Assembly: GCF_022965805.1 (NCBI RefSeq)
Contig: NC_133117.1
Span: 13,664,183 to 13,728,182, forward strand
Reading direction: 5' to 3'
Source of the DNA: Primulina eburnea
Lineage: Eukaryota; Streptophyta; Magnoliopsida; Lamiales; Gesneriaceae
Length of the DNA stretch: 64,000 bases
Shown here: positions 1,495 to 63,702 of the stretch, one piece after another
Layout: each line of letters opens with the position of its first letter
Numbering within the stretch: the stretch's first letter is position 1
Translations under genes and position numbers: made by a program
The notes under the pieces: generated by a model
Told to the model about the DNA's origin: nothing
Seen by the model: the letters and a program-made list of their open reading frames with translations, nothing else
Databases searched by the model: none

Positions 1495-3270
1495 TGTGAC
1501 ACCTCTGACCCAATTTAATAAAATAACAGCGGAAATTAAAAATTTTACTCTTATAGGAAGGAATGATTTAAAACTTCTCTTGACATAAACACATTTTCAA
1601 TATTTACAACCAAAAGTATAAATACATGATCAATCAAATGATGCAACAAAAAACAAAACATCATTTTAATGATCATGCCAAAGTGCTAACAAAATACTCT
1701 TCTTCCTTCCCTCTCTTATGCATATGACCCCGGCTCCAATCAACGTCCTGGCCCGTCACTCTTATCTGCATCACATGAATAACTGAAATGAGTATAAAAC
1801 TCAGCAAGTGGAACTCTTACATAGAAATGTACATAGCATACTCTGTAAAACATGGGTTTGAAAACATTCAATACCATCAACTCTGAAACAGGAATATCAT
1901 AGCAATACTTAGCAATAACGATGGTATTTCTCTTTACTCTGGTGGATTGATATCAATAGTATCTCTGTCTGTGGGATACTTGTATCCCATCGATATAAAT
2001 CGATAACTCTGTCGGGATAAAAGCCTATGGTCGTTGATCAACTAATTGCATGCAATCTCTGACTATGTATCTATCAATCCAATAAAACATTTAAACTCTC
2101 TCTTGGGCATTAAATCAAACACTTTGCATACTCTTTTCTCTTGGATTCCCTTTGACATAATTGAGACATAAAATGCCTCCATAATATACAACAAAGTGTA
2201 TCAATACATAATATGAATCAAATGAAGGGAATAACACTTTAAAACCATTGAAACACCATACATATATTATCATGTGAGCACAAGGAATGAATTTCCACTT
2301 ACAACCAACAAGAACACCTTCAATCTAAACCCTTGGTTGAATTCCTACAACAATAAACCATATATAATACCATCAATATCTCAATAATAAAAAACCCATA
2401 TCAATTAATCCATAAACCAACACCATCAACAAACCCATATCATCTCCAACACCAAAAACTAAGAATAAACTAGACCAAAAGCTTACCTTAGCTTCCTTGA
2501 ACCCAAAACTATCTTGATCTCACTTCAATAATCCAACAAAATGCTTGAATCATAGGAAGGAAATGAAAGGAAAAGGAACCCTAGCTTCCTTGCTCTGAAG
2601 AAACCGAGAGAATGGGAGTAAAACACCAAAAACACGACTTTACTATTCACAGACCGCGGGTGCGCTACAACATACACCGCGGGTGCGCTCTTGCTACGGA
2701 AAAACAACCAAAATTGTGAAGCCTGAGACCGCGGGTGCGGTCATCATTTGGAGCGCGGGTGCGCTCTCCACTCTGCGCACAGCTTCTCCAAAGATCGCCT
2801 CCGAAACGCCTCTTCCCATCATAATTTGGAAAAATGATAAACTACAAAGTTGTAGCTCTATGTCTTTTCTTGAACCCCTCTAAATTTCAGAACATTTGGA
2901 GGTCTGAGTAAAAGGTTATGCTAAATCTCCCAACATGTGTCACTGGAGGAACTTCGAAACACACGACACACTTCGGGGCACTTTTGGCTTACCTTCCACA
3001 ATGATTTGAACAAAACTCAAAATAAGAAAGTTAGACCTCTATGTCTTATCTAACCACTCCAATTGGCCTCATATCAATTGGATCAACATACGAATTATCA
3101 TGAATTTAATCGTAACGACGCTACAATCGAACTACACAACATCTATCATCAACAACACTATAAATCATAAATCGTCATCCTTAACATCAAAACTATACTT
3201 AAACTTACCCAAATAGTCAATAAACATAAGAAATCCTAAACCATACCGATCATCAAGCTTGGATATTATA
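1495..3270 (-). repeat. 5' LTR of gypsy element A1
   Basis: This LTR belongs to a minus-strand element. Its inner end (TGTGACACC on +) abuts the primer-binding site. Its outer end at 3270 aligns with the outer end of the A2 LTR, except that the terminal TG has become TA. It is about 1776 bp, longer than the 1369 bp A2 LTR because of an extra block of roughly 480 bp beyond the GC-rich cassette. Part of that block (about 2790-3030) is homologous to 63280-63570 in LTR A'. Flanking DNA at 3271 resumes element D. The candidate TSD GTTGT (3271-3275) cannot be tested because the other end is outside the window. Confidence 0.85.
2653..2765 (-). promoter_or_regulatory. GC-dyad cassette of the A1 LTR
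   Basis: Four 14-bp dyads begin at 2653, 2676, 2728 and 2752 (+ coordinates), such as ACCGCGGGTGCGGT and AGCGCGGGTGCGCT. They have 5-bp arms and a GGGT core. Start-to-start spacing is 23, 52 and 24. In the LTR sense direction, the first dyad of each pair follows CAG-N7 (CTG at 2773-2775) or CCG-N7 (CGG at 2697-2699). No clear TATA box follows in this copy. The function is unknown. Confidence 0.8.
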
Positions 3271-3351
3271 GTTGTTATATGTCACTATTGTTTTATCTCG
3301 GATCATGTTGTGGCTGATAAGCCTATATATATTGATATACATGAGATCGTA
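3271..3351 (+). repeat. Fragment of element D 5' LTR
   Basis: It aligns with 36597-36674 inside the D 3' LTR, sharing the segment reading ATCATGTTGTGG and then TTGATATACATGAGA. It is bounded on the left by A1 and on the right by element E. The last five bases, TCGTA (3347-3351), are duplicated at 27705-27709, where the D LTR resumes. Confidence 0.8.
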
Positions 3352-4015
3352 TGTAACGTCCGAAAAACCAACCTACGTAAATCGCATGATACAAATTATT
3401 TTAATTTCTTAATTTTTTTTAATTGATTAAATATATGATTTCATGATTAAATGATAATATGACATGATAACATGAAATGAATGATTTTATTCAATATTTG
3501 ATAATAGGCAGGAGAAAGGAGACTGGGGACGACCAAGACAAGAATATGTATTTTTCTTTAAATATGTGCAAGGCTTCCTAATATGATTAATTTTTTTTTT
3601 AATATTTCTAAAAATGTTGGAGTTTGAGGTCGTCCAACGTCGCACCCTCGCCAACGATCGTATATTCGAGTGTTATAAATGCAAAGACACGTTTTCTAAA
3701 CCTTTTTAAACATCATACGAATCGTAATTTTTGTGTTTTAATTGATTATGCATGAAAAATACGTGGGTTCTATTATTTTATGGTATGATACGTATTTTCA
3801 AAGTTTTTACGGTTTTACGGTTGTTTAAAAAAATCGTTTTGAATCCAACGGACACGCTGCCAATACACGTTAAAATATGAATGAATTATAGCCAAAACTT
3901 GATAAATTTAAAGGTAACAAAAGCTGGAAACCATAGGATTCTAGCAAAGAAGGAACCGTGGGTTTGTCTGCTTGTTGTGGTTCAAGAGACTCGGTTGCTT
4001 TGCATGGGGCTTGGG

Positions 4016-4606
4016 GGCTCGGACAGGGCTAGATGGGGACCGAGGAAGTTCAGGGGCGAGAGCCTAGTATAGTTATAGTGGGCTAGGACTCGCGCAGCAG
4101 GGCTGGGGAAGAGTCCTCGCTGCATAGGACTCTTCCCATGGGAGTTTTCTGGTTTGGCTGAGAGTTCCAAGGGGAGGCTCGGTTTGGGGTTGAGCTAGGT
4201 GGTTTATCAAGGCCTATGGTGATGGAAAGGGGTCAAGACAGGGGCTGGAGCGGCTGGGCTCGCTGTTGGCTTGAGCAAACGAGAGAGGCGTGGAGTATAA
4301 TGGCGCGCAGGCTGCTGTTCACGTGCAGGTGGCTCGTGCGCCGGTTCTAGGGCTTGGGCTGGTCTGGGTTGGGTCTAGGCGTGGTCCATGGATGGTTAGT
4401 GTCAGGTGGACTCGGTGGTGGCTCGGCTGGAAGTGCCCTATTTGGCTAAGAGTCTTGGTGAAGAGGAAGCTCACACACAGAATCTGGTGGCTCGGTTGCA
4501 GGGCTGTTGAGAAAGCTAGGGTTAGGTTCTATGGGTTGGGCTTGGTCATGAGAGTGCCTAGGTGGGTTGGCTCGGGTTTGGCTCGAGGTGGCTCGACCAT
4601 GGCTCG
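4016..4606 (+). repeat. G-rich GGCTCG microrepeat tract in element E
   Basis: The hexamer GGCTCG recurs many times here (for example 4016, about 4165, 4423, 4488, and several between 4568 and 4606) inside otherwise AT-rich DNA. It creates accidental open frames such as 4290-4616 with no recognisable protein. It does not follow the 22/50-bp dyad pattern seen in other LTRs. Confidence 0.6.
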
Positions 4607-4994
4607 AGTATTTTAGGAGATGGCTCTGTGTGTCCTTGCATGTGTCAAAAATGAGATTTTAAAGATTAAAATTGGAACCATGGGTCCACGGATGTGGTTC
4701 ATGGCTCACAAGGGTAGTTTAGGTAATAAAAATGATATGTTTAAAATTTGGAAAGAAAATAATGAGTTTTGGATTTATCCAGGATTTAATTACGAAACAT
4801 TAATTAAATAATTATTTGAAACACCTAAAATTAAGCTGAATAAAATTCTGAAAAATTATATTTAAACTTAAATAATTATTTATAATATGCCCATGTTATT
4901 AAAAGTGAGAAAAATATAAAATCAATAATTTTTACATAAAGAGGCAAACGACCATTTTACATTCGGGAAAATACGAAATGCTTGACAGCGTCTC

Positions 4995-7265
4995 TGTAGA
5001 ACCTATTAAACCAGACTACATATAAGCCATGTACAATTACTATTATTTAAATTAAAATGATCTTTTTATGGATGAGGATTTATATTCATTCTTATAAAAT
5101 TGGTTGAGTTGTGATCATTTGTTTTAAATCGTAGAAGTTTAGTGATAAAATTTAATGATAAGAAAATATTCCTAGAATTTATTTAAGATAAAGAATAATT
5201 TATTTTAATGAAAAATAATGTTTAGGGATTTAATTAATTAATTAGAGATAAATTGTAAATAAGTTCCTTTATGTCCAATAATTAATTAAAAGCCTAAATT
5301 AAATTGTATGACCAATTGAGATAAGTTAATCTAGGCTTATTTTATTTAAGAAATTGTAACTTAACATGCTAGTAATTTAATTTAAAGAATTAGCCATGCA
5401 TGCAAGATAATTACCATCCTAAATTAAATTTACTATTTCACTAAAATACATAATTAGTGTTTAAAACTTTAAAGAGTTAAAATTAATAATTTAAGAAATA
5501 TTTTACCCCATTGTATCTAGCAAATTTCGGCCACCACACTTTGAGGATTTGATTAATTTTAGTAACTCTATATTGATATCTTTCCTTAATCCTTTCATGG
5601 CATAGTTAATTCCCTCATTCTGAATCCTCAATAATTATTAATTAATCAATATTCCTACCCATATTTGATAGAAGAAATCGGCCATGCACCTCCTAAATAT
5701 CTCTCAAATCCCTTGATATCATATCATTTCCTATCTAACAAACTCAAAGGATAGAAAGATTTTATCTTGCCTTTCAAATCTCCCATCTATTTTGCAACTT
5801 CCTCATTCATCTCCTAGCCATTTCCCTCTCCTCATTCTCGAAATTTCAGAGCATATTCAGTAGAAAAAAGTGAGAAGCTCAAGCAAGATAATAAGAGAGA
5901 AACTAGTAGAAAAGAAAAAGAACTCCGTCTCCGCCGCGCCGTGTTCGTCGTAATCGTTTGTTTTCTTTCAGAACAAATTCAAGGCATGTTTATATTATCT
6001 TTTGCTTTTCAATCAAGTCATATACCTATTTTAAACCATGATATGTTCATGAATCTTGTAACAAAAACCAAAACTATGTCACACAATTTTCGAAAAACCA
6101 TGCACAGAATTTTTGGCTCTCCCTTGTGCCTTCACGGTTTGGCTTGTTCTGTTGATTTGCAAGTTGGCTCAGTTACTAGGCTCCCAAGGCTGCTTATGGT
6201 CATGACCTAGGGTATGTTAGGGTCAAGTTTGATCAAGGGTTCAAGCCAGAAAACCGTAAGTTAGGTGCTCGACTCGGTAAGTGAGAAACAAGTGTCTTAT
6301 TCGAGGTTCATTTTCTGTCATTGGCTTGCATAGGATAGTGTTCGAGTCATGGCTGGCCTAGGGCCGGTAGCCATGGCTAGGCCCTCCCATAGCAAGCATA
6401 GGACGTGGTCCAGTCAGTCCTAAGTGGCTTGAGCCATGTCCCAATTCATTCGGACAGAAACAAGACAAGCGCCCCTTCGAACCCTTTTCTTTTCCAGCAT
6501 GTGTAGTTTCGGTTTTGAGGTTGGTGTGGATATTGCTTGGGTTTTTAGCCCTTAGCCATGGTTCACGCAATACCTCGTGATGTCTAGATCATGCCATGAT
6601 CGATCACATGGCCACTGAAATTTTACATGACAGCAAAACAATCGCATTACCCTACGCGTGCAGTATGCGTTCTCGGGTGAAGCGTTGCATTGTCGTAGGT
6701 TTTTGCTTGGATTGTGGTTGGCCTAGGGCCCTTAGACATGGTTAAAACCACACATTAGGATGTTGGGAAGAAGCTCTGGTCTGTGGTTTAAGCCCCAATG
6801 ACCATTAGCCTTGTAATCGAAGCGAAGCAAGCACAGCTCCTGCCGCTGGAATTTTACAGCAGCTTTGCTGCGGTTCAGAGGTCACGTACGAGTTCTTTGT
6901 TGGCTTTTAGCCTATGGCCTTGGACTGGACAGTATCGTATTGAGTTAGGAAGGTCATGTTTTTGGCCGTTCGTGATTTGGTTAAGTTTAGAGGTCATATG
7001 AGAATTTACGGTGCAATGTGCCAAAGTGACTCTCGAAAGTGCGTTTCATGGTTTTGGCCTCCATACACAGTTTTCGTGTATTACAACCCTTGGTATTTAT
7101 TTTCCAGCATTTAGGTGTATTTTAATCATGACTAAACGATGGTTCGATGTTGGTTCTTGTTGGTACGGAGTCATGGTTAGAGACTAAGTTTGTTGGGCGT
7201 AATTGTCTCGTCTTTGATTCGGTTATGAAGTGTTGGTCAAATTGAGAGTATTTGCATTTGTCTCA
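4995..7265 (+). repeat. B LTR 1 (left)
   Basis: It starts TGTAGAACCTATTAAACC and is about 2271 bp. It lacks a roughly 51-bp segment near 5143 that LTRs 2 and 3 carry (10415-10467 in LTR 2). Left flank is element E. A TGGCCTAGGGCC-type motif with CATGG downstream recurs at about 6354, 6539, 6719 and 6901, giving a degenerate spacing of about 180 bp. Confidence 0.85.
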
Positions 7266-10236
7266 TGCATAGAGGGTGTCGAGCGTTCTTAGCAACTTTT
7301 GTATCCGTTCCCGAGGCACCTAGTAAGTCAGCCTCCGATGTCCCAATTGTTAGAGATTTTCTAGACGTACCTGAGGACGTCTCCGGTATTCCACATGAGC
7401 GAGAGGTGGAGTTTTCTATTGAGCTTATGCCAGGTACGGTTCCGATCTCAAAATCACCGTACCGATTAGCACCGACAGAGATGGCAGAACTTAAGAAGCA
7501 GATTTAGGAACTTCTTGACAAGGAGTTCATTCTCCCGAGTTTTTCACCATGGGGCGCGCCAGTCTTGTTTGTGAAGAAGAAGGATGGTACGATGAGGCTC
7601 TGCATTGATTACCGGGAATTGAACAGGGTTACAGTGAAGAACAAATACCCACTTCCGCGGATTGAAGATTTATTTGATCAGTTACAGGGAGCTTCAGTAT
7701 TCTCTAAGATCGACCTGCGTTCCGGCTATCATCAGTTGAGGGTGAAAGACGCAGATGTTCTCAAGACTGCTTTTAGGACTCGTTATGGCCACTTCGAGTT
7801 CCTTGTGATTCCGTTCGGTTTGACGAATGCGCCAGCGATCTTCATGGATCTCATGAATCGCGTATTTCAGCCGTATCTTGATCAGTTTGTGATAGTATTC
7901 ATAGACGAAATCCTCGTCCACTCAAATAATCAAGAGGATCACAGCAGACATCTTACCGCAGTTTTGCAGACCTTGCAAAAGCTTAAGCTATTCGCGAAGT
8001 TCAGTAAATGCGAATTCTGGTTAGAGAAGGTGGCGTTCTTAGGCCACATCGTTTCTAGCAGCGGTATTGAGGTAGACCTAGCGAAAATTGCAGCAGTCAG
8101 AGATTAGGTTGTGCCGCAGAATGAATCAGAGATTCGTAGTTTCCTTGGGCTAGCAGGATACTATCGGAAGTTTATTGAGGGATTCTCCTCTATCGCAGTT
8201 CCACTCACGTCGTTGACAAAGAAGAATGTTAAATTTGTGTGGAGCGATGAGTGTCAAAAGAGCTTCGATACTTTGAAGCAAGCTCTTATATCAGCGCCAG
8301 TTTTGGACATGCCGTCAGGGCCTGGCGAGTTTGTTTTGTATACCGATGCTTCGAAGCTCAGGTTAGGCGCATTGTTGATGCAGCATGGGAAGATGATAAC
8401 GTATGCTTTTCGTCATTTTAAAATCCATGAGAAGAACTACCCTACCCACGATCTAGAGTTGGCCGCCGTAATTTTTGCCTTGAAGATTTGGAGGCATTAT
8501 TTGTACGGAGAGAAGTGCCAGATCTTTACCGACCATAAGAGCCTCAAGTACTTCTTTACGCAGAAAGAGATGAATATGCGTCAGAGGCGTTGGTTGGAGC
8601 TAGTGAAGGCCTATGACTGTGACATTAGCTACCACCCTGGCAAAGCTAATGTAGTTGCGGATGCAATGAGCGAGAAAAGTCGCAGTGATGGCTCATCTAG
8701 CGAATTCGAGGCCTCTTCAGCCTGAGATGCAGAGGTTTGATCTAGAGACTTATCCTCGAGGTAGAGTTCCTCGTCTATCTACTTTAACGATTCAGTCTTC
8801 CCTTCTAGACCGTATTTGCAGTGGTCAGTCAGCATATGAGCAGTTGGCAAAGTGGAAGTAGAGAGATGAGGCCAAGGGCAGTATTTTGTATAAAGTTAGC
8901 GACGGTATTGTGAGATATCGAGACAGAATGTGGGTTCCTAGCAATGATTCTATTCAAGCATATATTTTATCCGAGGCCCACATGTCGCCGTACTCTATTC
9001 ATCCTGGGTGTACGAAGATGTACAAAGACCTGTAGTTGTTGTATTGGTGTCCCGAGATGAAGAAGGATATCAGACGTTTTGTATCCGAGTGTCTGACGTG
9101 CCAGCTAGTGAAAGCGGAGCATCAGAGACCAGCAGGCTTGCTCAAGCATCTTCCTATTCCCGAGTGGAAGTGGGAGAATATTACCATGGACTTTGTGGTA
9201 GGTTTGCCGAAGTCAGTCAGAGGATCAAATGCTATCTGGGTGATTGTTGATCATCTTACCAAGTCAGTGCACTTCTTGTCTATCAAGACGAATTTCACCA
9301 TGATTCAGTATGCAGAGTTGTATATCCGAGATATAGTCAGACTTCATGGTATTCCCGTTTCTATAGTGTCTGACCGAGATCCTAGATTCACTTCCGCATT
9401 TTGGAAGAGTCTGCATTCAGCAGTGGGTATGAAGTTGTTGTTTAGCACAGCTTTCCACTCTCAGACAGATGGGCAGTCAGAGAGAGTTATCCAGATTTTG
9501 GAGGATCTTCTCCGTGCTTGTGTAATCGATTTCTCAGGGAGTTGGGAGTTGAATTTGCCAATGGTAGAGTTCACCTATAACAACAGTTTTCAGTAGTCTA
9601 TAGGTATGGCTCCGTATGAAGCACTGTATGGTCGTAAGTACAGATCGCATTTTCATTGGGATGAAGTCGGCGTGAGATCAGAATTGGGTCCGGAGGTCAT
9701 TCAGCAGGCTGCCGATGTAGTAGTCAAGATCCGTGATAGGATGAGGACTGCTCAGAGCCGACAGAAGAGTTATACGGATCAGAGTAGGAGAGATCTAGAG
9801 TTTGCCGTTGGCGACCATGTTTTTGTGAAGGTAGCACCTATGAAAGGTGTCATGCTGTTCAAGAAGAAAGGAAAGCTCAGTCCGAGATTCATCGGACCAT
9901 TTTAGATCCTCGACAAGGTTGGGACGTTAGCTTATCATGTTGCTCTTCCGCCGAATCTGGCCGGAGTGCAAATGTGTTCAATTCCACGTCTCTATTCTGA
10001 GGAATTATATGGAAAATCCTTCGCATGTCTTGAACTTTGAGCCGCTGCAGCTCACTCCGAACCTGTCTTATGAAGAGAGACCAGTGCAAATCTTAGACAG
10101 ACAGGAGAAGAAGCTTCAGAACAAACTGGTGAAGCTAGTGAAGGTTAAATGGCTTAATCATTCGGAGGAGGAAGCTATGTGGGAATCTGAGCTAGAGATG
10201 CGGAGTCAGTACCCCGAGTTATTCGGTAAGTTTTAA
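7266..10236 (+). pseudogene. B copy 1 pol remnant: RT, RNase H, integrase, chromodomain
   Basis: The order is protease-RT linker, RT (7508-8107), RNase H with YTDAS, HDLEL and TDHKSL segments (8111-8690), integrase zinc region (CLTCQ), DD35E core with DRDPRF and TDGQSER, and a short chromodomain-like tail (PVQILDR to YPELF). It is broken by TAG at 7505, 8105, 8859, 9033, 9594 and 9903, and by frameshifts near 8675 and 9975. The RT box reads FIDE (7898-7909) instead of the family's FIDD. Gag and protease are absent, so it is a dead, non-autonomous remnant. All these lesions recur in copy 2 at +5328. Confidence 0.9.
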
Positions 10237-10250
10237 TTTCGAGGACGTAA
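10237..10250 (+). other. Conserved dyad before the polypurine tract, B copy 1
   Basis: TTTCGAGGACGTAA is an imperfect TTTCG-N4-CGAAA dyad just upstream of the polypurine tract. Related versions occur at 15565, 25478, 35343 and, on the minus strand, 40434. Confidence 0.6.
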
Positions 10251-10258
10251 TTTCTTTT

Positions 10259-10271
10259 AAGGGGGGAGAGT
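10259..10271 (+). other. Polypurine tract of B copy 1
   Basis: AAGGGGGGAGAGT directly precedes the TG of the middle LTR at 10272. It is the plus-strand primer for gypsy reverse transcription. Confidence 0.85.
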
Positions 10272-12593
10272 TGTAGAACCTGTTAAATCAGACTACGTAT
10301 AAGCCATGCATAATTACTATTATTTAAATTACAATGATTTTTTTATGGATGAGGATTTATATTCATTCTTATAAAATTGGTTGAGTTATGATCATTTGTT
10401 TTAAATCGTAGAAGTTTAGTTTTTGTCTTTTCGGTTAAATAAACGAGGCCGGACCGGAGTTGTAGTATTGAGATAAAATTTAATGATAAGAAATAATTCC
10501 TAGAATTTATTTAAGATAAAGAATAATTTATTTTAATGAAAAATAATGTTTAGGGATTTAATTAATTAATTAGAGATAAATTGTAAATAAGTTCCTTTAT
10601 GTCCAATAATTAATTAAAAGCCTAAATTAAATTGTATGACCAATTGAGATAAGTTAATCTAGGCTTATTTTATTTAAGAAATTGTAACTTAACATGCTAG
10701 TAATTTAATTTAAAGAATTAGCCGTGCATGCAAGATAATTACCATCCTAAATTAAATTTACTATTTCACTAAAATACATAATTAGTGTTTAAAACTTTAA
10801 AGAGTTAAAATTAATAATTTAAGCAATATTTTACCCCATTGTATCTAGCAAATTTCGGCCACCACACTTTGAGGATTTGATTAAATTTAGTAACTCTATA
10901 TTGATATCTTTCTTTAATCCTTTCACGGCATAGTTAATTCCCTCATTCTAAATCCTCAATAATTAATAATTAATCAATATTCCTACCCATATTTGATAGA
11001 AGAAATCGCCTATGCACCTCCTAAATATCCCTCAAATCCCGTGATATCGTATCATTTCCTATCTAACAAACTCAAATGATAGAAAGATTTTATCTTGCCT
11101 TTCACATCTCCCATCTATTTTGCAACTTCCTCATTCATCTCCTAGCCATTTCCCTCTCCTCATTCTCGAAATTTCAGAGCATATTCAGTAGAAAAAAGTG
11201 AGAAGCTCAAGCAAGATAATAAGAGAGAAACTAGTAGAAAAGAAAAAGAACTCCGTCTCCGCCGCGCCGTGTTCGTCGTAATCGTTTGTTTTCTTTCAGA
11301 ACAAATTCAGGGCATGTTTATATTATCTTTTGCTTTTCAATCAAGTCATATACCTATTTTAAACCATGATATGTTCATGAATCTTGTAACAAAAACCAAA
11401 ACTATGTCACACAATTTTCGAAAAACCATGCACAGAATTTTTGGCTCTCCCTTGTGCCTTCACGGTTTGGCTTGTTCTGTTGATTTGCAAGTTGGCTCAG
11501 TTACTAGGCTCCCAAGGCTGCTTATGGTCATGTCCTAGGGTATGTTAGGGTCAAGTTTGATCAAGGGTTCAAGCCAGAAAACCGTAAGTTAGGTGCTCGA
11601 CTCGGTAAGTGAGAAACAAGTGTCTTATTCGAGGTTCATTTTCTGTCATTGGCTTGCATAGGATAGTGTTCGAGTCATGGCTGGCCTAGGGCCGGTAGCC
11701 ATGGCTAGGCCCTCCCATAGCAAGCATAGGACGTGGTCCAGTCAGTCCTAAGTGGCTTGAGCCATGTCCCAATTCATTCGGACAGAAACAAGACAAGCGC
11801 CCCTTCAAACCCTTTTCTTTTCCAGCATGTGTAGTTTCGATTTTGAGGTTGGTGTGGATATTGCTTGGGTTTTTAGCCCTTATCCATGGTTCACGCAATA
11901 CCTCGTGATGTCTAGATCATGCCATGATCGATCACATGGCCACTGAAATTTTACATGACAGCAAAACAATCGCATTACCCTACGCGTGCAGTATGCGTTC
12001 TCGGGTGAAGCGTTGCATTGTCGTAGGTTTTTGCTTGGATTGTGGTTGGCCTAGGGCCCTTAGACATGGTTAAAACCACACATTAGGATGTTGGGAAGAA
12101 GCTCTGGTCTGTGGTTTAAGCCCCAATGACCATTAGCCTTGTAATCGAAGCGAAGCAAGCACAGCTCCTGCCGCTGGAATTTTACAGCAGCTTTGCTGCG
12201 GTTCAGAGGTCACGTACGAGTTCTTTGTTGGCTTTTAGCCTATGGCCTTGGACTGGACAGTATCGTATTGAGTTAGGAAGGTCATGTTTTTGGCCGTTCG
12301 TGATTTGGTTAAGTTTAGAGGTCATATGAGAATTTACGGTGCAATGTGCCAAAGTGACTCTCGAAAGTGCGTTTCATGGTTTTGGCCTCCATACACAATT
12401 TTCGTGTATTACAACCCTTGGTATTTATTTTCCAGCATTTAGGTGTATTTTAATCATGACTAAACGATGGTTCGATGTTGGTTCTTGTTGGTACGGAGTC
12501 ATGGTTAGAGACTAAGTTTGTTGGGCGTAATTGTCTCGTCTTTGATTCGGTTATGAAGTGTTGGTCAAATTGAGAGTATTTGCATTTGTCTCA
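10272..12593 (+). repeat. B LTR 2 (middle, chimeric)
   Basis: About 2322 bp. The first roughly 820 bp carries LTR 3-type variants (the 51-bp segment, GATTAAATTTAG, CACGGCATAG, CAAATGATAG near 11086). From about 11165 it carries LTR 1-type variants (CATTCTCGAAAT, GTAGAAAAAAGTGAG). The switch lies between about 11090 and 11165. Confidence 0.85.
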
Positions 12594-15564
12594 TGCATAG
12601 AGGGTGTCGAGCGTTCTTAGCAACTTTTGTATCCGTTCCCGAGGCACCTAGTAAGTCAGCCTCCGATGTCCCAATTGTTAGAGATTTTCTAGACGTACCT
12701 GAGGACGTCTCCGGTATTCCACATGAGCGAGAGGTGGAGTTTTCTATTGAGCTTATGCCAGGTACGGCTCCGATCTTTAAATCACCGTACCGATTAGCAC
12801 CGACAGAGATGGCAGAACTTAAGAAGCAGATTTAGGAACTTCTTGACAAGGAGTTCATTCTCCCGAGTTTTTCACCATGGGGCGCGCCAGTCTTGTTTGT
12901 GAAGAAGAAGGATGGTACGATGAGGCTCTGCATTGATTACCGGGAATTGAACAGGGTTACAGTGAAGAACAAATACCCACTTCCGCGGATTGAAGATTTA
13001 TTTGATCAGTTACAGGGAGCTTCAGTATTCTCTAAGATCGACCTGCGTTCCGGCTATCATCAGTTGAGGGTGAAAGACGCAGATGTTCTCAAGACTGCTT
13101 TTAGGACTCGTTATGGCCACTTCGAGTTCCTTGTGATTCCGTTCGGTTTGACGAATGCGCCAGCGATCTTCATGGATCTCATGAATCGCGTATTTCAGCC
13201 GTATCTTGATCAGTTTGTGATAGTATTCATAGACGAAATCCTCGTCCACTCAAATAATCAAGAGGATCACAGCAGACATCTTACCGCAGTTTTGCAGACC
13301 TTGCAAAAGCTTAAGCTATTCGCGAAGTTCAGTAAATGCGAATTCTGGTTAGAGAAGGTGGCGTTCTTAGGCCACATCGTTTCTAGCAGCGGTATTGAGG
13401 TAGACCTAGCGAAAATTGCAGCAGTCAGAGATTAGGTTGTGCCGCAGAATGAATCAGAGATTCGTAGTTTCCTTGGGCTAGCAGGATACTATCGGAAGTT
13501 TATTGAGGGATTCTCCTCTATCGCAGTTCCACTCACGTCGTTGACAAAGAAGAATGTTAAATTTGTGTGGAGCGATGAGTGTCAAAAGAGCTTCGATACT
13601 TTGAAGCAAGCTCTTATATCAGCGCCAGTTTTGGACATGCCGTCAGGGCCTGGCGAGTTTGTTTTGTATACCGATGCTTCGAAGCTCAGGTTAGGCGCAT
13701 TGTTGATGCAGCATGGGAAGATGATAACATATGCTTTTCGTCATTTGAAAATCCATGAGAAGAACTACCCTACCCACGATCTAGAGTTGGCCGCCGTAAT
13801 TTTTGCCTTGAAGATTTGGAGGCATTATTTGTACGGAGAGAAGTGCCAGATCTTTACCGACCATAAGAGCCTCAAGTACTTCTTTACGCAGAAAGAGATG
13901 AATATGCGTCAGAGGCGTTGGTTGGAGCTAGTGAAGGCCTATGACTGTGACATTAGCTACCACCCTGGCAAAGCTAATGTAGTTGCGGATGCAATGAGCG
14001 AGAAAAGTCGCAGTGATGGCTCATCTAGCGAATTCGAGGCCTCTTCAGCCTGAGATGCAGAGGTTTGATCTAGAGACTTATCCTCGAGGTAGAGTTCCTC
14101 GTCTATCTACTTTAACGATTCAGTCTTCCCTTCTAGACCGTATTTGCAGTGGTCAGTCAGCATATGAGCAGTTGGCAAAGTGGAAGTAGAGAGATGAGGC
14201 CAAGGGCAGTATTTTGTATAAAGTTAGCGACGGTATTGTGAGATATCGAGACAGAATGTGGGTTCCTAGCAATGATTCTATTCAAGCATATATTTTATCC
14301 GAGGCCCACATGTCGCCGTACTCTATTCATCCTGGGTGTACGAAGATGTACAAAGACCTGTAGTTGTTGTATTGGTGTCCAGAGATGAAGAAGGATATCA
14401 GACGTTTTGTATCCGAGTGTCTGACGTGCCAGCTAGTGAAAGCGGAGCATCAGAGACCAGCAGGCTTGCTCAAGCATCTTCCTATTCCCGACTGGAAGTG
14501 GGAGAATATTACCATGGACTTTGTGGTAGGTTTGCCGAAGTCAGTCAGAGGATCAAATGCTATCTGGGTGATTGTTGATCATCTTACCAAGTCAGTGCAC
14601 TTCTTGTCTATCAAGACGAATTTCACCATGATTCAGTATGCAGAGTTGTATATCCGAGATATAGTCAGACTTCATGGTATTCCCGTTTCTATAGTGTCTG
14701 ACCGAGATCCTAGATTCACTTCCGCATTTTGGAAGAGTCTGCATTCAGCAGTGGGTATGAAGTTGTTGTTTAGCACAGCTTTCCACTCTCAGACAGATGG
14801 GCAGTCAGAGAGAGTTATCCAGATTTTGGAGGATCTTCTCCGTGCTTGTGTAATCGATTTCTCAGGGAGTTGGGAGTTGAATTTGCCAATGGTAGAGTTC
14901 ACCTATAACAACAGTTTTCAGTAGTCTATAGGTATGGCTCCGTATGAAGCACTGTATGGTCGTAAGTACAGATCGCATTTTCATTGGGATGAAGTCGGGG
15001 TGAGATCAGAATTGGGTCCGGAGGTCATTCAGCAGGCTGCCGATGTAGTAGTCAAGATCCGTGATAGGATGAGGACTGCTCAGAGCCGACAGAAGAGTTA
15101 TACGGATCAGAGGAGGAGAGATCTAGAGTTTGCCGTTGGCGACCATGTTTTTGTGAAGGTAGCACCTATGAAAGGTGTCATGCTGTTCAAGAAGAAAGGA
15201 AAGCTCAGTCCGAGATTCATCGGACCATTTTAGATCCTCGACAAGGTTGGGACGTTAGCTTATCATGTTGCTCTTCCGCCGAATCTGGCCGGAGTGCAAA
15301 TGTGTTCAATTCCACGTCTCTATTCTGAGGAATTATATGGAAAATCCTTCGCATGTCTTGAACTTTGAGCCGCTGCAGCTCACTCCGAACCTGTCTTATG
15401 AAGAGAGACCAGTGCAAATCTTAGACAGACAGGAGAAGAAGCTTCAGAACAAACTGGTGAAGCTAGTGAAGGTTAAATGGCTTAATCATTCGGAGGAGGA
15501 AGCTATGTGGGAATCTGAGCTAGAGATGCGGAGTCAGTACCCCGAGTTATTCGGTAAGTTTTAA
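12594..15564 (+). pseudogene. B copy 2 pol remnant
   Basis: This is a near-exact copy of 7266-10236 shifted by 5328 bp. It has the same domain order and FIDE box (13226-13237). It shares TAG codons at 12833, 13433, 14187, 14361, 14922 and 15231 and the same two frameshifts. Differences are a handful of substitutions, such as GTTCCGATCTCA to GCTCCGATCTTT near 12767-12779 and GTCGGCGTG to GTCGGGGTG near 15000. Shared lesions mean the sequence was already dead when it was duplicated as DNA. Confidence 0.9.
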
Positions 15565-15586
15565 TTTCGAGGACGTAATTTCTTTT

Positions 15587-15599
15587 AAGGGGGGAGAGT
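15587..15599 (+). other. Polypurine tract of B copy 2
   Basis: Identical to 10259-10271; it precedes the third LTR at 15600. Confidence 0.85.
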
Positions 15600-17924
15600 T
15601 GTAGAACCTGTTAAATCAGACTACGTATAAGCCATGCATAATTACTATTATTTAAATTACAATGATTTTTTTATGGATGAGGATTTATATTCATTCTTAT
15701 AAAATTGGTTGAGTTATGATCATTTGTTTTAAATCGTAGAAGTTTAGTTTTTGTCTTTTCGGTTAAATAAACGAGGCCGGACCGGAGTTGTAGTATTGAG
15801 ATAAAATTTAATGATAAGAAATAATTCCTAGAATTTATTTAAGATAAAGAATAATTTATTTTAATGAAAAATAATGTTTAGGGATTTAATTAATTAATTA
15901 GAGATAAATAGTAAATAAGTTCCTTTATGTCCAATAATTAATTAAAAGCCTAAATTAAATTGTATGACCAATTGAGATAAGTTAATCTAGGCTTATTTTA
16001 TTTAAGAAATTGTAACTTAACATGCTAGTAATTTAATTTAAAGAATTAGCCGTGCATGCAAGATAATTACCATCCTAAATTAAATTTACTATTTCACTAA
16101 AATACATAATTAGTGTTTAAAACTTTAAAGAGTTAAAATTAATAATTTAAGCAATATTTTACCCCATTGTATCTAGCAAATTTCGGCCACCACACTTTGA
16201 GGATTTGATTAAATTTAGTAACTCTATATTGATATCTTTCTTTAATCCTTTCACGGCATAGTTAATTCCCTCATTCTAAATCCTCAATAATTAATAATTA
16301 ATCAATATTCCTACCCATATTTGATAGAAGAAATCGCCCATGCACCTCCTAAATATCCCTCAAATCCCTTGATATCGTATCATTTCCTATCTAACAAACT
16401 CAAATGATAGAAAGATTTTATCTTGCCTTTCAAATCTCCCATCTATTTTGCAACTTCCTCATTCATCTCCTAGCCATTTCCCTCTCCTCATTCTTGAAAT
16501 TTCAGAGCATATTCAGTAGAAAACTCGTGAGAAGCTCAAGCAAGATAATAAGAGAGAAACTAGTAGAAAAGAAAAAGAGCTCCGTCTTCATCGCGCCGTG
16601 TTCGTCGTAATCATTTGTTTTCTTTCAAAACAAATTCAAGGCATGTTTATATTATCTTTTGCTCTTCAATCAAGTCATATATGTATTTTAAACCATGATA
16701 TGTTCATGAATCTTGTAGCAAAAACCGAAACTATGTCACACAATTTTCGAAAAACCATGCACAGAATTTTTGGCTCTCCCTTGTGCCTTCACGGTTTGGC
16801 TTGTTTTGTTTATTTGCAAGTTGCCTCGGTTCCTAGGATCCCAAGGCTGCTTATGGTCATGTCCTAGGGTATGTTAGGGTCAACTTTGATCAAGGGTTCA
16901 AGCTCGAAAACCGTAAGTTAGGTGCTCGACTCGGTAAGTGAGAAACAAGTGTCATATTCGAGGTTCATTTGCTGTCATTGGCTTTCGTAGGATAGTGTTC
17001 GAGTCATGGCTGGCCTAGGGCCAGTAGCCATGGCTAGAACCCTCCCCTAGCAAGCATAGGACGTGGTTGAGTCGGCCCTAAGTGGCTTGAGCCATGTCCC
17101 AAGTCATTCGGACAGAGACAAGACAAGCGCCCCCTTCAAACCCTTTTCTTTTCCTGCATGTGTAGTTTTGGTTTTGAGGTTGGTGTGGATATTTCTTGCC
17201 TTTTTACCCCTTAAACATGGTTCATGCAATACCTCGTGATGTCTAGATCATGCCATGGTCGATCACATGGCCACTGGAATGATACATGAGAGCAAAACAA
17301 TCGCAACACCCCACGCGTGCAGTATGCGTTCTCGGGTGAAGCGTTGGATTGTCGTAGGTGTTTGCTTGGATTGTGTTTGGCCTAGGGCCCTTAGCCATGG
17401 TTTAAGCCACACCTTAGGATGTTGGGAGAGGCTCTGGTCAGTGGTTCAAGCCCCAATGACAATTAGCCTTGTAATCGAAGCGAAGCAAGTACAGCTGCTG
17501 CCGCTGGAATTTTACAGCAGCTTTGCTGAGGTTCAGAGGTCACGTACTAGTTCTTGGTTGCATTTTTACCTATGGGCTTGGACTGGACAGTACCTTATTG
17601 AGTTAGGAAGGTCATGTTTTTGGCCGTTTGTGATTTGGTTTAGTTTAGAGGTCATACAAGAATTTACGGTGCAATGTGCCAAAGTGACTCTCGAAAGAGC
17701 GTTTCATGATTTTGGCCTCCATGAACAATTTTCATGTATTACAGCCCTTGGTATTTATTTTAAAGTATTTTAGGTGTATTTGAATCATTACTAAACGATG
17801 GTTTGATGTTGGTTCGGGTTGGTACGGAGTCATGGTTAGATACTAAGTTTGTTGGGCGTAATTGTCTCGTCTTTGATTCAGTTATGAAGTGTTGGTCAAA
17901 TTGAGAGTATTTGTATGTGTCTCA
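15600..17924 (+). repeat. B LTR 3 (right)
   Basis: About 2325 bp. Its first third matches LTR 2 closely. From about 16490 it diverges from LTRs 1 and 2 by many substitutions, consistent with its being the original 3' LTR. Similarity to LTRs 1 and 2 stops just after TGTCTCATG at 17918-17926. Its last part also shows an accidental open frame (17255-17773) with no known domain. Confidence 0.8.
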
Positions 17925-19601
17925 TGTTAGAATTAGGTCGCAGCGAGCCTGGAAACGATTCAACCCAATTGGTAAAATAAAAAAAGATTTTTAATTATAT
18001 TACGTGCATAATATAAAATGTTTATTTTTGAGATATATGCAATATGTCTTGTGGCCACCTCACGCTTATGGGATTCAGCTTATGAGATTATTACTTCACC
18101 CGGTGAATTACGACCGGTTAATGTTCATGTATGGGTACGGATATCCAATCCAAGGACTGTGATGATCTCTACCGCCTAGTATGCTGTAGTTTATTCTGAT
18201 CAAACAATTCATGTTATGTTATGGGCCACTTACGTAGAACATTATCTCAATAGAAAATTATGAAATGCTATTTTATGACAGGGCTCTATCGAGCAAACAT
18301 TTTACATACGATTTTTCAGATATGCACGTATTTATAATTATTCATGATATGATTTTCACGTGACGCTTTGCGATACGATATTTTTACGTTACGCCGAATT
18401 TTATGATATATTTACTTGTTATCCATGATATATGCATGCTGAGTCTTTAGACTCACTAGAATTGATTGTTGTAGGTACTGATGAGGTCGAGACCGAGCGC
18501 GGGGACCAGTGAGCTAGCTTGGGTCGGCAATAGTAGGAACCCGATGACCTCATGTATCATCTTATTTATCATTTTTATGCTCAAACTCATTTTTGTCTTG
18601 TTGAAATATTTTTAAGTGATTGTTTCGAAACAATATTTACTTCCGCTGCTATTTTGACATTTAAACAATTTTTATCAGTTTATTTTATGAACGAGGCATG
18701 TTATTTACTTTTAAAGGAAAATTTTAAATTATTCCTCAAATTTTCAAATACGAAATACGAGCCTCTACAGTCCCAAAGGATCATAATGATTGTTAAATGA
18801 TATTTTTATGATTTATAATATGATTTTGATGAAAATATAATATTTTATGATTTATGGTATAGTTGTGCAATTTATACTGTTTAAAATGCTATTTTTGAAA
18901 AGCTATGTTATTTTAGGATTTTTAAAGAAAAGAAAAAATATTTTAAGGGATGTGAATTAACTGTGACATGTGATATATGTTTTTTTTTGGGGATTCGTTT
19001 ATGTGAGAACAGTGAACTTACAATTTTGTGGAGATGTCGTGAGGGCCAAGGCCCCACATGGTGCCCATATACGGGCCAAGGCCCTAGAGCGACCCGGTGT
19101 ATGGGAAAAGGCCCCAGAGGACCACGACGATCGTATTTTCATGGTGGAGCCTAGTGCATACCCCCATGGGCCATGTGGAGTTGAAGACTGATCAGTTGAC
19201 CGGAGGATAAAAGCTAGTGACTTTCAAGGATCAAACTTCACTCAAAATGATATATGATTGAAGGCTTTACGATAAAAATGATTTTATGATATATGATGCT
19301 TAAAGCTATTTAAAATGATTTATTTATAATCAAACTTTTTTTTAAATATTTTACAAGTTATGATTGAATTATTTTTAAAATGATTTTAAAAGTTTTAATT
19401 ATGTTTAAAAGCTATTTTAAATAAAAGTATGATTTTAAATGCATGTGAATGTATATGTATTATTTGATATCAATGTTTAGAACGTGCTGAGTCTTTATAC
19501 TCACTAGGATTGTATGATGAAGGATTTGAGGATTTATGGGAGGCACTGACGATTGAGTGGATCGAGTGCAGCAGTACACACCCGAGGGTTTTTATGTTTC
19601 C
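17925..19601 (+). repeat. Element E, middle segment
   Basis: Non-coding AT-rich DNA between nested B and C. It contains GCTGAGTCTTTAGACTCACT at 18438 and a near copy at 19486, and a CCAAGGCCCC-rich patch at 19040-19115. The last five bases, TTTCC (19597-19601), are the left TSD of element C. No coding similarity was seen. Confidence 0.65.
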
Positions 19602-33043: not shown

Positions 33044-33045
33044 AG

Positions 33046-48159: not shown

Positions 48160-50560
48160 TGTTAGAGTGGGTACCCGGCAAGCCAACTTATGGCTTGGAC
48201 TTTATTGACTCTAATGTAAAACAATCTTTATTTTAATATAATTTTACGATTTTATTCGATTATGGCATTATACTTTATCTGTATACCCATGCAAGCTGCA
48301 TAGATAAAGTCCTTGAATATACAATAGGTACCATGAGGTCTGCGACTCAACGTAAGATCATGAAACTCTTTAGCAAGTGTACCGTATATTCTAAACAGGT
48401 TCCTAGTCGAATCAGCCGCCTAAAACAAGGATAAAGGTCGCTCGAGCTCGAGACTAGCATTTGTGATGTAAACGCCAAGTTTCATTGGCAAGGGCATGGA
48501 GATGTCCATTCACACAGATGGGTGATCATATGATGATGCACTGAACAACCCTCCCTCGGACTATCCAAGTGGTTCCCACTTATCGAGTGGAATAGTCCAC
48601 GGTTATGGTTGTACACCATTAGTCCTTTGACCCGGGACAATGTAGGGGCTATACGTACTAGCATGCACTTTGATCCGTTTACCGACTCCATTGAGGGTCA
48701 TCAGGTGGCGAGGTTGGGTGTAGTTTCGAAATACGTATGAGCAAATGCATTGTACTCGGGGATTCAACGTTCGCCTACGGGAGAAGATATCCTATGTGAT
48801 CTGATAAGTTAATAGTGCAAGGAGTCTCTGGCCAGAGCAAGAAATGTGCTTTAGGAAAAGGTGTTTTCTTAGTTGAAAATACCATGTCACTATTAGTACT
48901 AAAAGATAAATCGCATCGTTATCGAATTCATATGCAACTCTCGATATACCAATGGTTGCAGATTCGATCGGGATATATGTGTTGAAGGGACCGTACTATA
49001 CGCTAACCATGACTAAAGGTTCTTGCAGGCACTATCAGTGATACCTAGGGGATCATGGGGCGATGCTACTAGACGCTATTACCATGATCCGATGGGTGCA
49101 ATCAGAAGTGAGTTCTGACATTCTTGATCAAGGAGTTGATGAAAAGAATGGGGTTAACTAGGGTAAACCCGAATAAGAATAAATGTTATTCTGAATCACA
49201 TGGAGATGTGAACCCACGGCTAGCTGTATCCCTGAACCATTGAGGGTCACACAAGTATCGGATTCTGTGTTCCCGTTGAGATAGTCAAATTTCAAGGAGT
49301 TGGAATTTGGCGAGTATTGTTTGATGGAGATCAAACAGTAAGCTTATAAAGGAGTTTATGAGCTGATTCCATATGATGGAAGAAGTGGAAGTTAGCATGA
49401 TTTCTAAATAAGGAAGGAGAGTGGAACTGCCTGTTTTGTGAAGGAGTTCACTAAAACTGGCAGCTACCAAATATGGTAACTGTCATATATGGCAAGTTCT
49501 AAATTTGGTAAATGAAAATTTTGATCTTCGAAATTTTCGATTTTCATTATATAAACAAAATTTGTATCCTTGGTACATCGGCGCTCTCGGATCGTCGTTC
49601 GGGGTTAAAATGAGTTCGGAATAATTTTTTTAGTGAATTTGGAATTTACTAATTAAATGATTATGCTAGTAGTGGTGACTACAAACTTGCACAAGTTCTC
49701 ATATATGTTCTAGAGGAGTCTAAAATTAAATTAACGAATGAGTTAATTTATTAATTAAATAATGGTTATTTAATTTAATTAATATACATGTATATTTTAT
49801 ATGGAGATATAAATTATGTGTATATAATATTATTATATCATGTATTATTAAATGTTAATAAAATAAATTATATGAGAGTTTAAATATAATGAAATTATTA
49901 GAGTCCTTGTGTGAGATGGACTCCTAATTATATTATGAGTCTCACTCTTTAAATACAACATTAGGGCTTATTGTTTGATGATGAAAATTTGCACACAAAG
50001 CAAATCAAAATCCTTCTTTTTCCCCCTTGAAACCCACGGCCAACCTCATGTTTTTGGTGGAAATTTTAGCCATGAAAGCAAATGGGATTTGCTTTATTGT
50101 TGATTAAAAAATCAATAATTAATTGTTAATTATTGGTTAATAATCAATTAGCACAAGATCCATGATTTAAAATCATGGAAGTCTCGGCCACTTGCAAAAT
50201 TTCGAAGAAAATATTCGGCTTTTTGGTTTCTTCCACGCCGCGCTATACTAACTCCGAATTTTGGAAATTTGGAGGCAACAGTCTCAACGCAAAATCGTTT
50301 GTGATTTCTAGTGCAATCCAAGCGAGGAACATACCTTTCGATCGTGGACCTAATTAGACGGTCAAAGGAGGCAAGCCGTTCGTAGAGATTTACAAGAAGG
50401 GCTATATCTGCCTCAAACAGAATAGTTTGGAGTCCAGCGTTTAGAACGTAAAGGTATAATTCTTAGAACACCCTATGAATTGTTTAAACACACGACGCCC
50501 AAGAACAAAATATTTTAAACTTCCGCTGCATCTTGGGCGCGAGAATACAATGTCCCAACA
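48160..50560 (+). repeat. 5' LTR of copia element I
   Basis: 2401 bp, TGTTAGAGTGGG to GTCCCAACA. It aligns end to end with 55564-57971, with scattered substitutions and short indels. No GC-dyad cassette. Confidence 0.93.
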
Positions 50561-50561
50561 G

Positions 50562-50726: not shown

Positions 50727-50975
50727 AGCCCGGAATTGTTCCGGGCAGACGCGTGCGCGCAGGCGCTGCACGGCAGGCTCGCAGCGCGCGTGCACGGTGC
50801 CGCACGGCAGGCGCAGGCGCGCGCGCACGGCCTGCACGCCTGTGCGCGCGGCCAGCGCACATCGCGCCAGCCAGCGCCTGATCGGATAGGGCAGCGGGCG
50901 GGAGGGTGCCCGGGAATGTCTCGAGTACCGTGCTGGGTCGTGGGCTTGAATTGTTCAGGCCCGGGGGCGGTTTTC
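50727..50975 (+). repeat. GC-rich low-complexity tract in copia leader
   Basis: A stretch dominated by GCGCGC, GCACGG and GCAGGC words between AT-rich flanks. It gives overlapping Ala/Arg-rich frames on both strands with no protein similarity. No gag motif is seen here. Confidence 0.6.
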
Positions 50976-62070: not shown

Positions 62071-62270
62071 AAATCAAGATTCTCACTTTAAATGGTTGGT
62101 AAAACCAAACTAACATTTAAATGGTACCAAGAAATTAATATTATGATATATTCATATATAATAAATCAAGGAATCCACTTTAAATGGTTGATAAAACCAA
62201 ATTAACATTTAAATGGTTCCAATAATTTAGTGTAACATATAGAAACAATAAATCAAAACTCCTACTTATA
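62071..62270 (+). repeat. About 90-bp degenerate tandem repeat
   Basis: AAATCAAG, then CACTTTAAATGGTTG and AACATTTAAATGG, occurs from 62071 and again from 62163. A third, weaker start (AAATCAAAACTCC) is at 62250. The period is about 92 and 87 bp. Confidence 0.55.
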
Positions 62271-62569
62271 AGTAGGCTATAAAAATACTTAAAGAAATAA
62301 ATATAACATAAACAATAAATAATGATTAAATAATATAAAACATAGATTCTTACCTTTTAATAACTTATTATCATGCCAAGAGTTTCACCTTTTCATCTCA
62401 ACTTTAGGAAGTTAGCTATTCATTATTCAAAGTGTAAAACTTTGAATATGAAATTATCATGCTAATTATATTTAAATGAATAAATAAAGGAAAAATATAG
62501 AGAGAAATATTATGAACTCAAAGGTTTGTTCATAGAATGAGGGATATCTTAATACATTACAATGCACCC

Positions 62570-62579
62570 CTATTTATAG
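62570..62579 (-). promoter_or_regulatory. Minus-strand TATA box, probable LTR relic
   Basis: In the minus sense CTATAAATAG followed by GGGTGCATTGTAATG, typical of retroelement leaders. Neither end of an LTR could be fixed. The rest of 62271-62968 shows nothing else. Confidence 0.45.
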
Positions 62580-63593
62580 CCAAATTTGGGGAGACAACCA
62601 CAAATAAAATATTATTTTTTTACACAAAAGTCTTCATTGGTGTTCCAAGATATTATATTATATTACACATCACTTTTGAAAATCTTCTTCTCCGAATTTT
62701 CTTCTTCACATAAAAAGAAACATGTGGATAATTGAGTTGTCTAGTTGTGGTAATTTTTTCAAACCATTTGACCAAGTAATTTGAGAGATATGGTCAAAAT
62801 ACTAGAGCATGGTAAAACTGCAACTCCTTTGGTAACTTTATTATAGATATTAACATCAACTTTCTACAGGTCCAAGAATCATCTTAATCTCATTTGAAAC
62901 TCCAAGTTTATTCTTGTTTTATCGAACCTGTAAAAAATAGTAAAAACTTGTAATTACACAACAACTTATGTAACGCCCAGACATTCGTATGCATATGATG
63001 TAAGGTAATGATTATGATTAAGTATGGTCATTATTACTTTTATGGTTTATTATGTTGAACGTTTGGGATATGCTATGTAATGGTGCTGGTTTATGGCTTC
63101 AAGATATGATATGAATGGTATTGAATGATTTAGAATGGAACCGAGAATGGATGGGTAGAATGGAAAGTTGATCCTTAGTCAAATAAGTAATGGAAGTGCT
63201 AAAACGGTATGAAACTGTGGCAGTAGTTGTGGTTTTTAGCTTAATGTTTTGTATATTGATCCAAATGATGTGAGGTCACTTTCATTAGAAAGATAAGACA
63301 TAAGGCTATAACTTTGTTATTTTGGGTTTTGTCCAAATCATTGTGGAAGTCAAGCTAAAAGCGCCCCGAAGTGTGTCGTGTGTATCGTAGTTCCTCCAGT
63401 GACACATGTTGGGAGATTGAGCATAACCTTTTACTCAGACCTCCAAATGGTCTGACATTTGGAGGGATTCAATTTAAGACATAGAGCTACAACTTTCTAG
63501 TTTACCATTTTTCCACATTATGAAGGGAAAAGGCGTTTCGGAAGCGATCTTTGACGAGGCTATGCGCAGAGTGCACGCCGGGACAGCAGGTGC

Positions 63594-63702
63594 CGCGCTA
63601 GGGCGGTATAGTTTGAGCGCCCCAGCGCCCCTGGCACTAAAATTTTGGGTTTCGGACAGTAAGTTCCGCGCTAGGGCGGTAAAACTTGACCGCCCCAGCG
63701 CC
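63594..63702 (+). promoter_or_regulatory. GC-dyad cassette of LTR A'
   Basis: Four 14-bp dyads: CGCGCTAGGGCGGT at 63594 and 63667, AGCGCCCCAGCGCC at 63616 and ACCGCCCCAGCGCC at 63689. Spacing is 22, 51 and 22. Each pair is preceded by CAG-N7 (CAG at 63584 and 63657). Cores are TAGG then CCCA. Confidence 0.85.

Follow-up and report, generated by a model that had tools for sequence, protein, structure and literature searches.

The DNA examined here is a window of 64,000 nt from Primulina eburnea (GCF_022965805.1, NC_133117.1, positions 13,664,183–13,728,182, forward strand), "the window" meaning the whole of this stretch. Within several long terminal repeats (LTRs) of retrotransposons in this window there are arrays of a 14 bp GC-rich dyad, approximately SCGC-N4-GCGS, and it is the arrangement of these dyads that is considered here. 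Seven such cassettes, in the LTRs referred to as A1, A2, A', C and F, had been listed in a preliminary description of the sequence, and all of them were located at the positions it gave. A strict dyad is an exact CGC-N4-GCG, and dyads with one mismatch are admitted separately where stated. Distances are measured from dyad start to dyad start, such that a gap of 10–14 is a distance of 20–24 bp and a gap of 38–44 a distance of 48–54 bp. The arrays are:

2653–2765, minus strand: A1 array of 4 dyads, the core being ACCC in the LTR sense, distances 24/52/23 (one mismatch allowed)
19763–20009, plus strand: C1 array with 5 strict dyads and cores AYAT/ATCT, distances 22/42/22/51/23/50 (one mismatch allowed)
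25675–25889, plus strand: C2 array, 5 strict dyads, distances 54/51/23/50/23 (one mismatch allowed), TATAWA 44 bp on
34044–34222, minus strand: F array, three pairs made up of 3 strict dyads and 3 with one mismatch, core CCRA, distances 22/50/22/49/22
40221–40384, minus strand: A2 array of the 3' LTR, 5 dyads, 3 of them strict, one unpaired
45901–46064, minus strand: A2 array of the 5' LTR, 5 dyads, 3 of them strict, distances 23/51/53/23 (one mismatch allowed)
63594–63702, plus strand: A' array of 4 dyads with the cores TAGG and then CCCA, distances 22/51/22, last dyad followed by TATAAA at 39 bp

There are 31 strict dyads in the window, 27 of them inside the seven cassettes; 300 local dinucleotide shuffles of the window average 3.1 and never exceed 10. 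Pairs 22–24 bp apart occur nine times, and not once in any of the 300 shuffles. When CGC-Nx-GCG is counted in the window for gaps of 0–15, N4 is the commonest (31) and N6 the second (23). The cassettes had been described as built entirely of 14 bp dyads, which is correct for their general anatomy, except that one mismatch is present in 10 of the dyads counted, and as judged by eye 6 of these are CpG transitions. The spacing first reported, pairs at 22–24 bp followed by steps of about 49–53 bp (42 once), agrees with the measured distances, with C2 reaching 54. The other four strict dyads of the window, at 50750–50846, are in a GC-rich stretch just behind a copia LTR and their spacing is off this grammar.

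In the LTR sense, 12 of 15 units in the window have CAG or CCG (CMG) seven bases before the NNCGC of the first dyad, which is 12 bases before the CGC counted start to start, as the preliminary description had it, whereas no other offset between -30 and -3 is occupied in more than 4 of the 15. The A2 3' LTR and three C1 units were omitted from this count as near-copies. The arrays had also been said to end 38–50 bp before a TATA-like box where one is visible. Counting from the last strict dyad, the first TATAWA is indeed at 44 bp in C2 and 39 bp in A'; it is at 52 bp in F, and there is none within 120 bp in A1, A2, and C1.

The same dyads were sought in the window's own assembly (812,487,562 bases, 1224 contigs), where all match counts are lower bounds and the control is the reversed dyad pattern, of equal composition. 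Dyad pairs with a gap of 10–14 number 106,437, against 6,017 for the control, with 17,030 against 2,360 for gaps of 15–29 and 117,621 against 9,482 for gaps of 30–59 (distances 40–69). Distances of 48–54 bp make up 67,541 of the 117,621, as opposed to 2,840 of the 9,482 in the control. The tag is found with CAG-N9-pair 40,687 times (20,638 + 20,049) versus 197 (103 + 94), and one base closer, as CAG-N8-pair, 1,167 times versus 21. Among the matches listed, 50 distinct pairs have gaps of 12 (42), 13 (7), or 11 (1), as counted by eye; 39 of 50 distances between 25 and 39 are at 30–31; and 52 distances between 40 and 69 fall at 40–46 (11), 48–54 (31), and 62–66 (10), with none at 55–61, some of them being sums across an intervening dyad, such as 22 + 31. 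Twenty 10 kb stretches of the assembly, at positions set beforehand, contain 29 dyads where the reversed control gives 13. Four arrays are present in these stretches, three of which fit the grammar (20, 22–23, 51–52). The dyad array is a real feature and it reaches beyond the window. An array with a GGCC core and similar linkers is present on assembly contig C1 at 4787253–4787367, and another on the same contig (L043, 8323300–8324000) has cores CCCC and TCCC, also with similar linkers; these extra cores may represent more families than the four studied.

A set of 45 arrays was assembled from 6 in the window, 3 in the random sample, and 36 picked from the match listings (L006, L030–L043, L045, L047–L066). 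The fetched loci were oriented by the CMG tag and the window arrays by their LTRs, with the side on which the TATA box lies serving as an independent check. In this set, the members of which are not independent trials because the families share ancestry, all 202 adjacent strict-dyad distances of up to 60 bp fall into 20–24 (113), 30–31 (19), 40–44 (15), or 48–54 (55), leaving 25–29, 32–39, 45–47, and 55–60 empty. A further 13 such distances are 64–116. Every one of the four classes is represented among the A-type, the C-type, and the F-type arrays alike, and the two A'-type arrays have 20–24 and 48–54 only. In a Rayleigh test of 42 linker distances, the observed value exceeded those of all 5000 uniform draws; since the best-fit period is 9.6–10.0 and the flat null takes no account of common descent, the argument from spacing rests on the empty classes.

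Polarity is seen in the same set. Of 109 pairs, 69 have CMG where it is expected and 2 have it at the mirror place; for 66 pairs in 25 arrays the numbers are 50 and 1. These ratios are partly circular for the fetched loci because the tag chose their orientation. The first TATAWA is 39–57 bp past the last dyad in 20 of the 45 arrays; on the mirror side one is found in four arrays, in none of them at 39–60. In 43 arrays at least 80% of the dyads are of one core type, by classes defined after the data had been seen. At least 8 strict dyads are present in 8 of the 45, counting single arrays and not summing those of one element.

It might be supposed that an ancestral unit was copied in tandem in early LTRs and that the spacing has been inherited since then without present selection. 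The linkers of A1, A2, and A' appear by eye to be homologous, some arrays are near-copies, and the unit-to-unit distances 53–54, 63–66, and 70–74 recur, all of which would be expected from such descent. It would not explain why the dyads are kept or homogenised while the linkers drift: core identity is 0.87 within families and 0.24 between them, as against 0.38 and 0.36 for the flanks. Nor would it explain that the distance classes at steps of about 10 bp hold in three well-sampled core types, that CpG-rich dyads persist in LTRs elsewhere poorer in CpG, and that the TATAWA distance is nearly constant where the box is present. Tandem descent by itself is therefore considered unlikely. When flanks are compared between the two LTR groups, the segment -24 to -3, which holds the CMG tag, matches at rank 1 of 117 registers in both directions, while the segments outside the tag (-9 to -3 and -24 to -13) have ranks of 8–23 of 117 and are not significant.

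The families had been listed as separate, which is not the case for all of them, as A1, A2, and A' are mutually dependent and so are C and F. Upstream of the array, the A1 LTR is 87% identical to the A' LTR over 326 bp, and downstream of it 86% identical to the A2 LTR over 1032 bp; downstream of its own array A' has no similarity to A1 or A2 at E 1e-3. The C and F LTRs share 70–73% identity in four downstream blocks, as well as the first 16 bp of the LTR, yet their core types differ (AYAT and CCRA).

Arrays occur in at least two Ty3/gypsy lineages. At L006 (assembly contig C1, 39.8 kb) there are five F-type pairs, the first unit of which is identical 9,972 bp further on, as two LTRs would be. 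Between these repeats is a Ty3/gypsy pol in which the reverse transcriptase (RT) and RNase H are 36–42% identical to those of chromovirus B of the window. This element, host to both the L006 and the L045 arrays, may be Athila/Tat-like. The likeness of L006 to F (83% over 42 bp) is confined to the array; at E 1e-5 nothing else in L006 matches the window.

These mosaics, the joint in A1 falling at the array, bear on the alternative given in the preliminary description, that of a recombining module, in which the palindromes would be points of strand transfer or exchange and the swapping of cassettes would spread the grammar. The A1 junction, the unrelated downstream part of A', the differing cores of the related C and F LTRs, and the array-only likeness of F and the distant L006 are all consistent with exchange. 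It would account for the spread of the arrays but not for helical spacing, polarity, or the TATA distance, and similarity confined to the array could also be convergence, such that recombination as the full explanation is very improbable.

In the second lineage the array is found not only in the LTR. An F-type array (L045 172–336, with L046 205–1332; assembly contig C1, 46.6–48.3 kb) stands before an open reading frame (ORF) matching Pfam Transposase_32 (E 4e-41), which is the third ORF of the element, behind pol. The ATG of this ORF is 219–242 bp after the last strict dyad at all four loci that were read (L045, L048, L051, L054), and at each of them a TTTATAWG follows the last dyad, one-mismatch dyads included, at about 7 bp. 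The sequence context suggests that the internal array is likely to be an internal promoter, from which the extra ORF would be transcribed. Promoter function is argued for most strongly by the finding that the same type of array precedes two distinct transcription units.

A palindromic array close to the 3' end of the element transcript could instead act as folded RNA, in packaging, in dimerisation, or as a hairpin source of small RNAs. Folding is stronger than in shuffles for several arrays (z-scores of -12.1 for L045, -9.6 for L036, -5.2 for C2, -4.0 for F, and -3.2 for A'), and Sirevirus palindromes in maize are reported to draw small RNAs (PMC10760457). Two A-type arrays are nearer to the shuffles (z -1.4 and -2.4), and there is no covariation of the cores in 25 F-type pairs, a small sample in which 9/25 and 11/25 are paired, with shuffle means of 9.4 and 11.4. 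The weaker folding of the A arrays and the lack of F-type covariation would make a hairpin unlikely as a common selected feature. Such a structure, moreover, would need neither helical steps, CMG polarity, nor a TATA distance, and the RNA explanation as a whole is held to be highly unlikely, though array hairpins may attract small RNAs. A long hairpin across the pair was rejected as the selected feature, the A- and F-type cores being non-complementary and the F-type without covariation (n = 25).

The arrays are distinct in composition from the LTRs around them. Their observed/expected CpG ratio is 1.10–1.43, against 0.49–0.90 in the remainder of the same LTRs, and their GC content is 0.53–0.61, and it is on these two values that their CpG-island character is judged. 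A methylation switch might be suggested by this contrast, with a putative protein of the element or host keeping a CpG-dense promoter unmethylated. VANDAL elements, which are Mutator-like DNA transposons, provide the analogy. In these, tandem arrays of short motifs in non-coding regions are the targets of the anti-silencing protein VANC, and the motif arrays differ in concert between related elements, as they do here (Hosaka et al. 2017, PMC5735166). The differences are that the VANDAL motif is AT-rich, that its reader is encoded by the element, and that the word "spacing" is absent from the main text of that paper (PMC5735166). The uniformity of core type within arrays would be expected if motif and reader co-evolve. 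The ORFs of A2 that were scanned, however, hold gag-pol domains only, and in the second lineage the third ORF has a Transposase_32 domain. We regard this possibility as rather unlikely; it overlaps with a promoter function, differing in that the function is placed in chromatin and not in activation.

On balance, it is fairly probable that the arrays are helically phased upstream modules of LTR promoters, putatively read by a dimeric factor. The selected upstream element of the preliminary description is borne out by the genome-wide excess, the quantised spacing in three core types, the polarity, the TATA distance, and the internal copy, and its suggestion of a dimeric reader would fit the dyad symmetry and the helical steps. 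As upstream activating modules, the arrays would offer in each dyad a putative site for a dimeric, sequence-specific nuclear factor, and two dyads 22–23 bp apart would form one unit. Units spaced by about 20, 30–31, 40–44, or 48–54 bp would hold the bound proteins in a similar helical register, the CMG tag nine bases before the first strict dyad would give the direction of the unit, and the array would end about 50 bp ahead of the TATA box where one is seen. It is the dyad symmetry that suggests a dimer, the steps of about 10 bp that suggest that the side of the helix matters, and the one-sided tag together with the TATA distance that point to a directional complex involving the core promoter. 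A core that is family-specific and uniform in each array suggests either co-evolution with the reader or homogenisation by exchange. What is inferred is that a protein binds the arrays, that it does so as a dimer, that transcription is activated, and that the arrays have a reader in common.

Several observations weigh against this interpretation. The CAG-N9 tag covers about 38% of the genome-wide pairs and CMG is missing from 40 of the 109 pairs in the array set. In the same set there is no TATAWA within 120 bp in 24 of the 45 arrays and in one it is at 12 bp, and the TATA-like word of the internal arrays is much closer to the last dyad than the expected 50 bp or so. The fitted period falls short of 10.5. 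Among the matches listed, 11 of 50 distances are off 30–31 (5 at 28–29 and 6 at 32–39), and off-class distances, for example 17, 28, 29, 33, and 35, turn up once dyads with one mismatch are counted, although some of these dyads may be chance sites. One array of the random sample (L027, 76/30/23) has mixed cores and breaks the core rule. Units within an array partly resemble diverged tandem copies, the 45 arrays share ancestry and most were chosen from match listings, and some arrays also have strong RNA folding.

Beyond the phased promoter module itself, it can be put forward only tentatively, and we lean against it, that the grammar has become common to distant Ty3/gypsy lineages by convergence or exchange, with one putative host complex fixing the geometry while each array retains its own 4 bp core, and that in one lineage the array has also been recruited as an internal promoter of the extra ORF. 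E2F-like sites (TTSGCGC) were considered for the first half-site of the F-type and rejected as a general explanation, as the A-type dyads do not fit. An exact scan of IMG/VR with the A'-type pair gave 5 matches, in contigs of 58–71% GC without array spacing nearby, which were taken as chance, and no relatives of the A2 polymerase were found in the IMG/VR scan. Chance ORFs across the C array and the L006 array, used as protein queries for arrays in other plants, had no matches, and a literature text search for six dyad strings returned four papers, unrelated by title.

The LTRs and internal regions that carry the arrays in the window are:

1495–3094, minus strand: A1 LTR, approximate, ends not fixed
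19602–21543, plus strand: C 5' LTR
25514–27441, plus strand: C 3' LTR, starting TGTAATGCCTGAGATTTG after the polypurine tract AGAGGGGGAGAAT
31689–34352, minus strand: F LTR, apparently solo, within a gypsy integrase gene, with other repeats nested in it
39045–40413, minus strand: A2 3' LTR, TGTAATAGCC...GGGTGTTACA, preceded by the polypurine tract AAGGAGGGGAGA, array about 30 bp into the LTR
40454–44591, minus strand: A2 internal ORFs with Gag, CCHC, protease, RT, H2C2 integrase, Tf2-1 SH3, and a chromodomain just below cut-off
44727–46093, minus strand: A2 5' LTR, 96% identical to the A2 3' LTR
62969–64000, plus strand: A' LTR, starting TGTAACGCCC and continuing past the end of the window

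On its profile matches, A2 is a Ty3/gypsy, chromovirus-like element and a candidate member of the Del/Tekay group: RVT_1, H2C2, and Tf2-1 SH3 are clear, and Chromo (E 4.4e-5) scores 23.7 bits for a cut-off of 25.1. Both of its LTRs end GGGTGTTACA, with GGG at -8 to -10, the Del U5 att type A. The integrase and chromodomain regions of the C element are 55–57% alike to those of A2. Chromovirus B, which has three LTRs, is 67% identical to A2 in the RT and 63–67% in the chromodomain region. By direct count there is no CGC-N4-GCG in the three chromovirus B LTRs or the two copia LTRs of the window, which would restrict the arrays to some chromovirus-like elements and mean that they are not a general LTR property here. 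The direct count was used because a search for the commonest dyad in each LTR is no proof of array absence, having also missed the A1 and F arrays. Chromovirus B (4995–17926) has its LTRs at 4995, 10272, and 15600, with two internal regions in a row that are 97% alike over 7.6 kb, a layout such as would come from unequal recombination. Just ahead of the GC-rich stretch at 50750–50846 is the LTR of a copia element (48160–50561). Nested in the F LTR, at 32646–33504, are two direct copies of about 395 bp, 93% identical and 467 bp apart, near which a TGTAACGCC-like LTR start is present at 33506 on the minus strand.

The closest known system is that of the boxes in Sirevirus LTRs (Bousios et al. 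2010, PMC2829016), a description of which the preliminary account, which knew of none, was unaware. These are palindromic CGG-CCG boxes in high copy number, at least eight per element, in the upper half of the LTR, where they form CpG islands with a TATA box averaging 37 bp on, and extra copies are present upstream of env, behind pol. Their symmetric core is fixed, the intervening bases vary by element, a cis-regulatory role was proposed but not tested, and they are stated to be Sirevirus-specific (PMC2829016). Both systems thus have CpG-rich, dyad-symmetric boxes clustered upstream of TATA, and the arrays before the Transposase_32 ORF parallel the boxes upstream of env. The differences are that the dyad here is CGC-N4-GCG and not CGG-CCG, and that Sireviruses are Ty1/copia whereas A2 is Ty3/gypsy and the copia LTRs of the window are without the dyad; the paired 22 bp unit, the helical linker classes, and the CAG tag are not described in the accessible text of that paper. 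The palindrome clusters of maize Sirevirus LTRs are described as small-RNA hotspots with strong predicted RNA structure, similar in placing palindromes in the LTR cis-region and different in their silencing focus and superfamily (as described in PMC10760457). Del LTRs have a CpG-dense, length-variable 5' part, with the eudicot Del group reported to lack CpG islands (Cruz et al. 2014, PMC4029996); the 5' CpG density is shared with the arrays here, as is the Del type A U5 end in A2, but no dyad or spacing is described in the accessible text of that source, from which the words "palindrom", "tandem", and "spacing" are absent.

The kind of feature is therefore one already known, and what is new is the half-site, the superfamily, the pair grammar, and the polarity tag. 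In Tnt1 and other plant LTRs, repeated activator boxes occur in U3 upstream of TATA, in few copies, with other sequences, and in copia elements. The likeness of these to the present arrays is in having repeated cis-elements before TATA in U3, and the differences are in copy number, sequence, and superfamily. Tnt1 is mentioned as a plant LTR case in PMC3601003 and PMC2829016. No description of CGC-N4-GCG pairs, the linker classes, or the CAG tag was found in the literature searched, which covers few subscription papers.

Plant LTR promoters are generally described as fast-evolving sequences that have hardly any grammar in common apart from TATA. Should the present grammar prove correct, the host would offer one class of promoter reader that is exploited by several retrotransposon families, and inserting a half turn of helix into a linker should break function, while a full turn should not. 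The internal array bears on the expression of extra ORFs behind pol. More than 100,000 dyad pairs in a genome of 812 Mb would be a large reservoir of potential promoters and of small-RNA sources.

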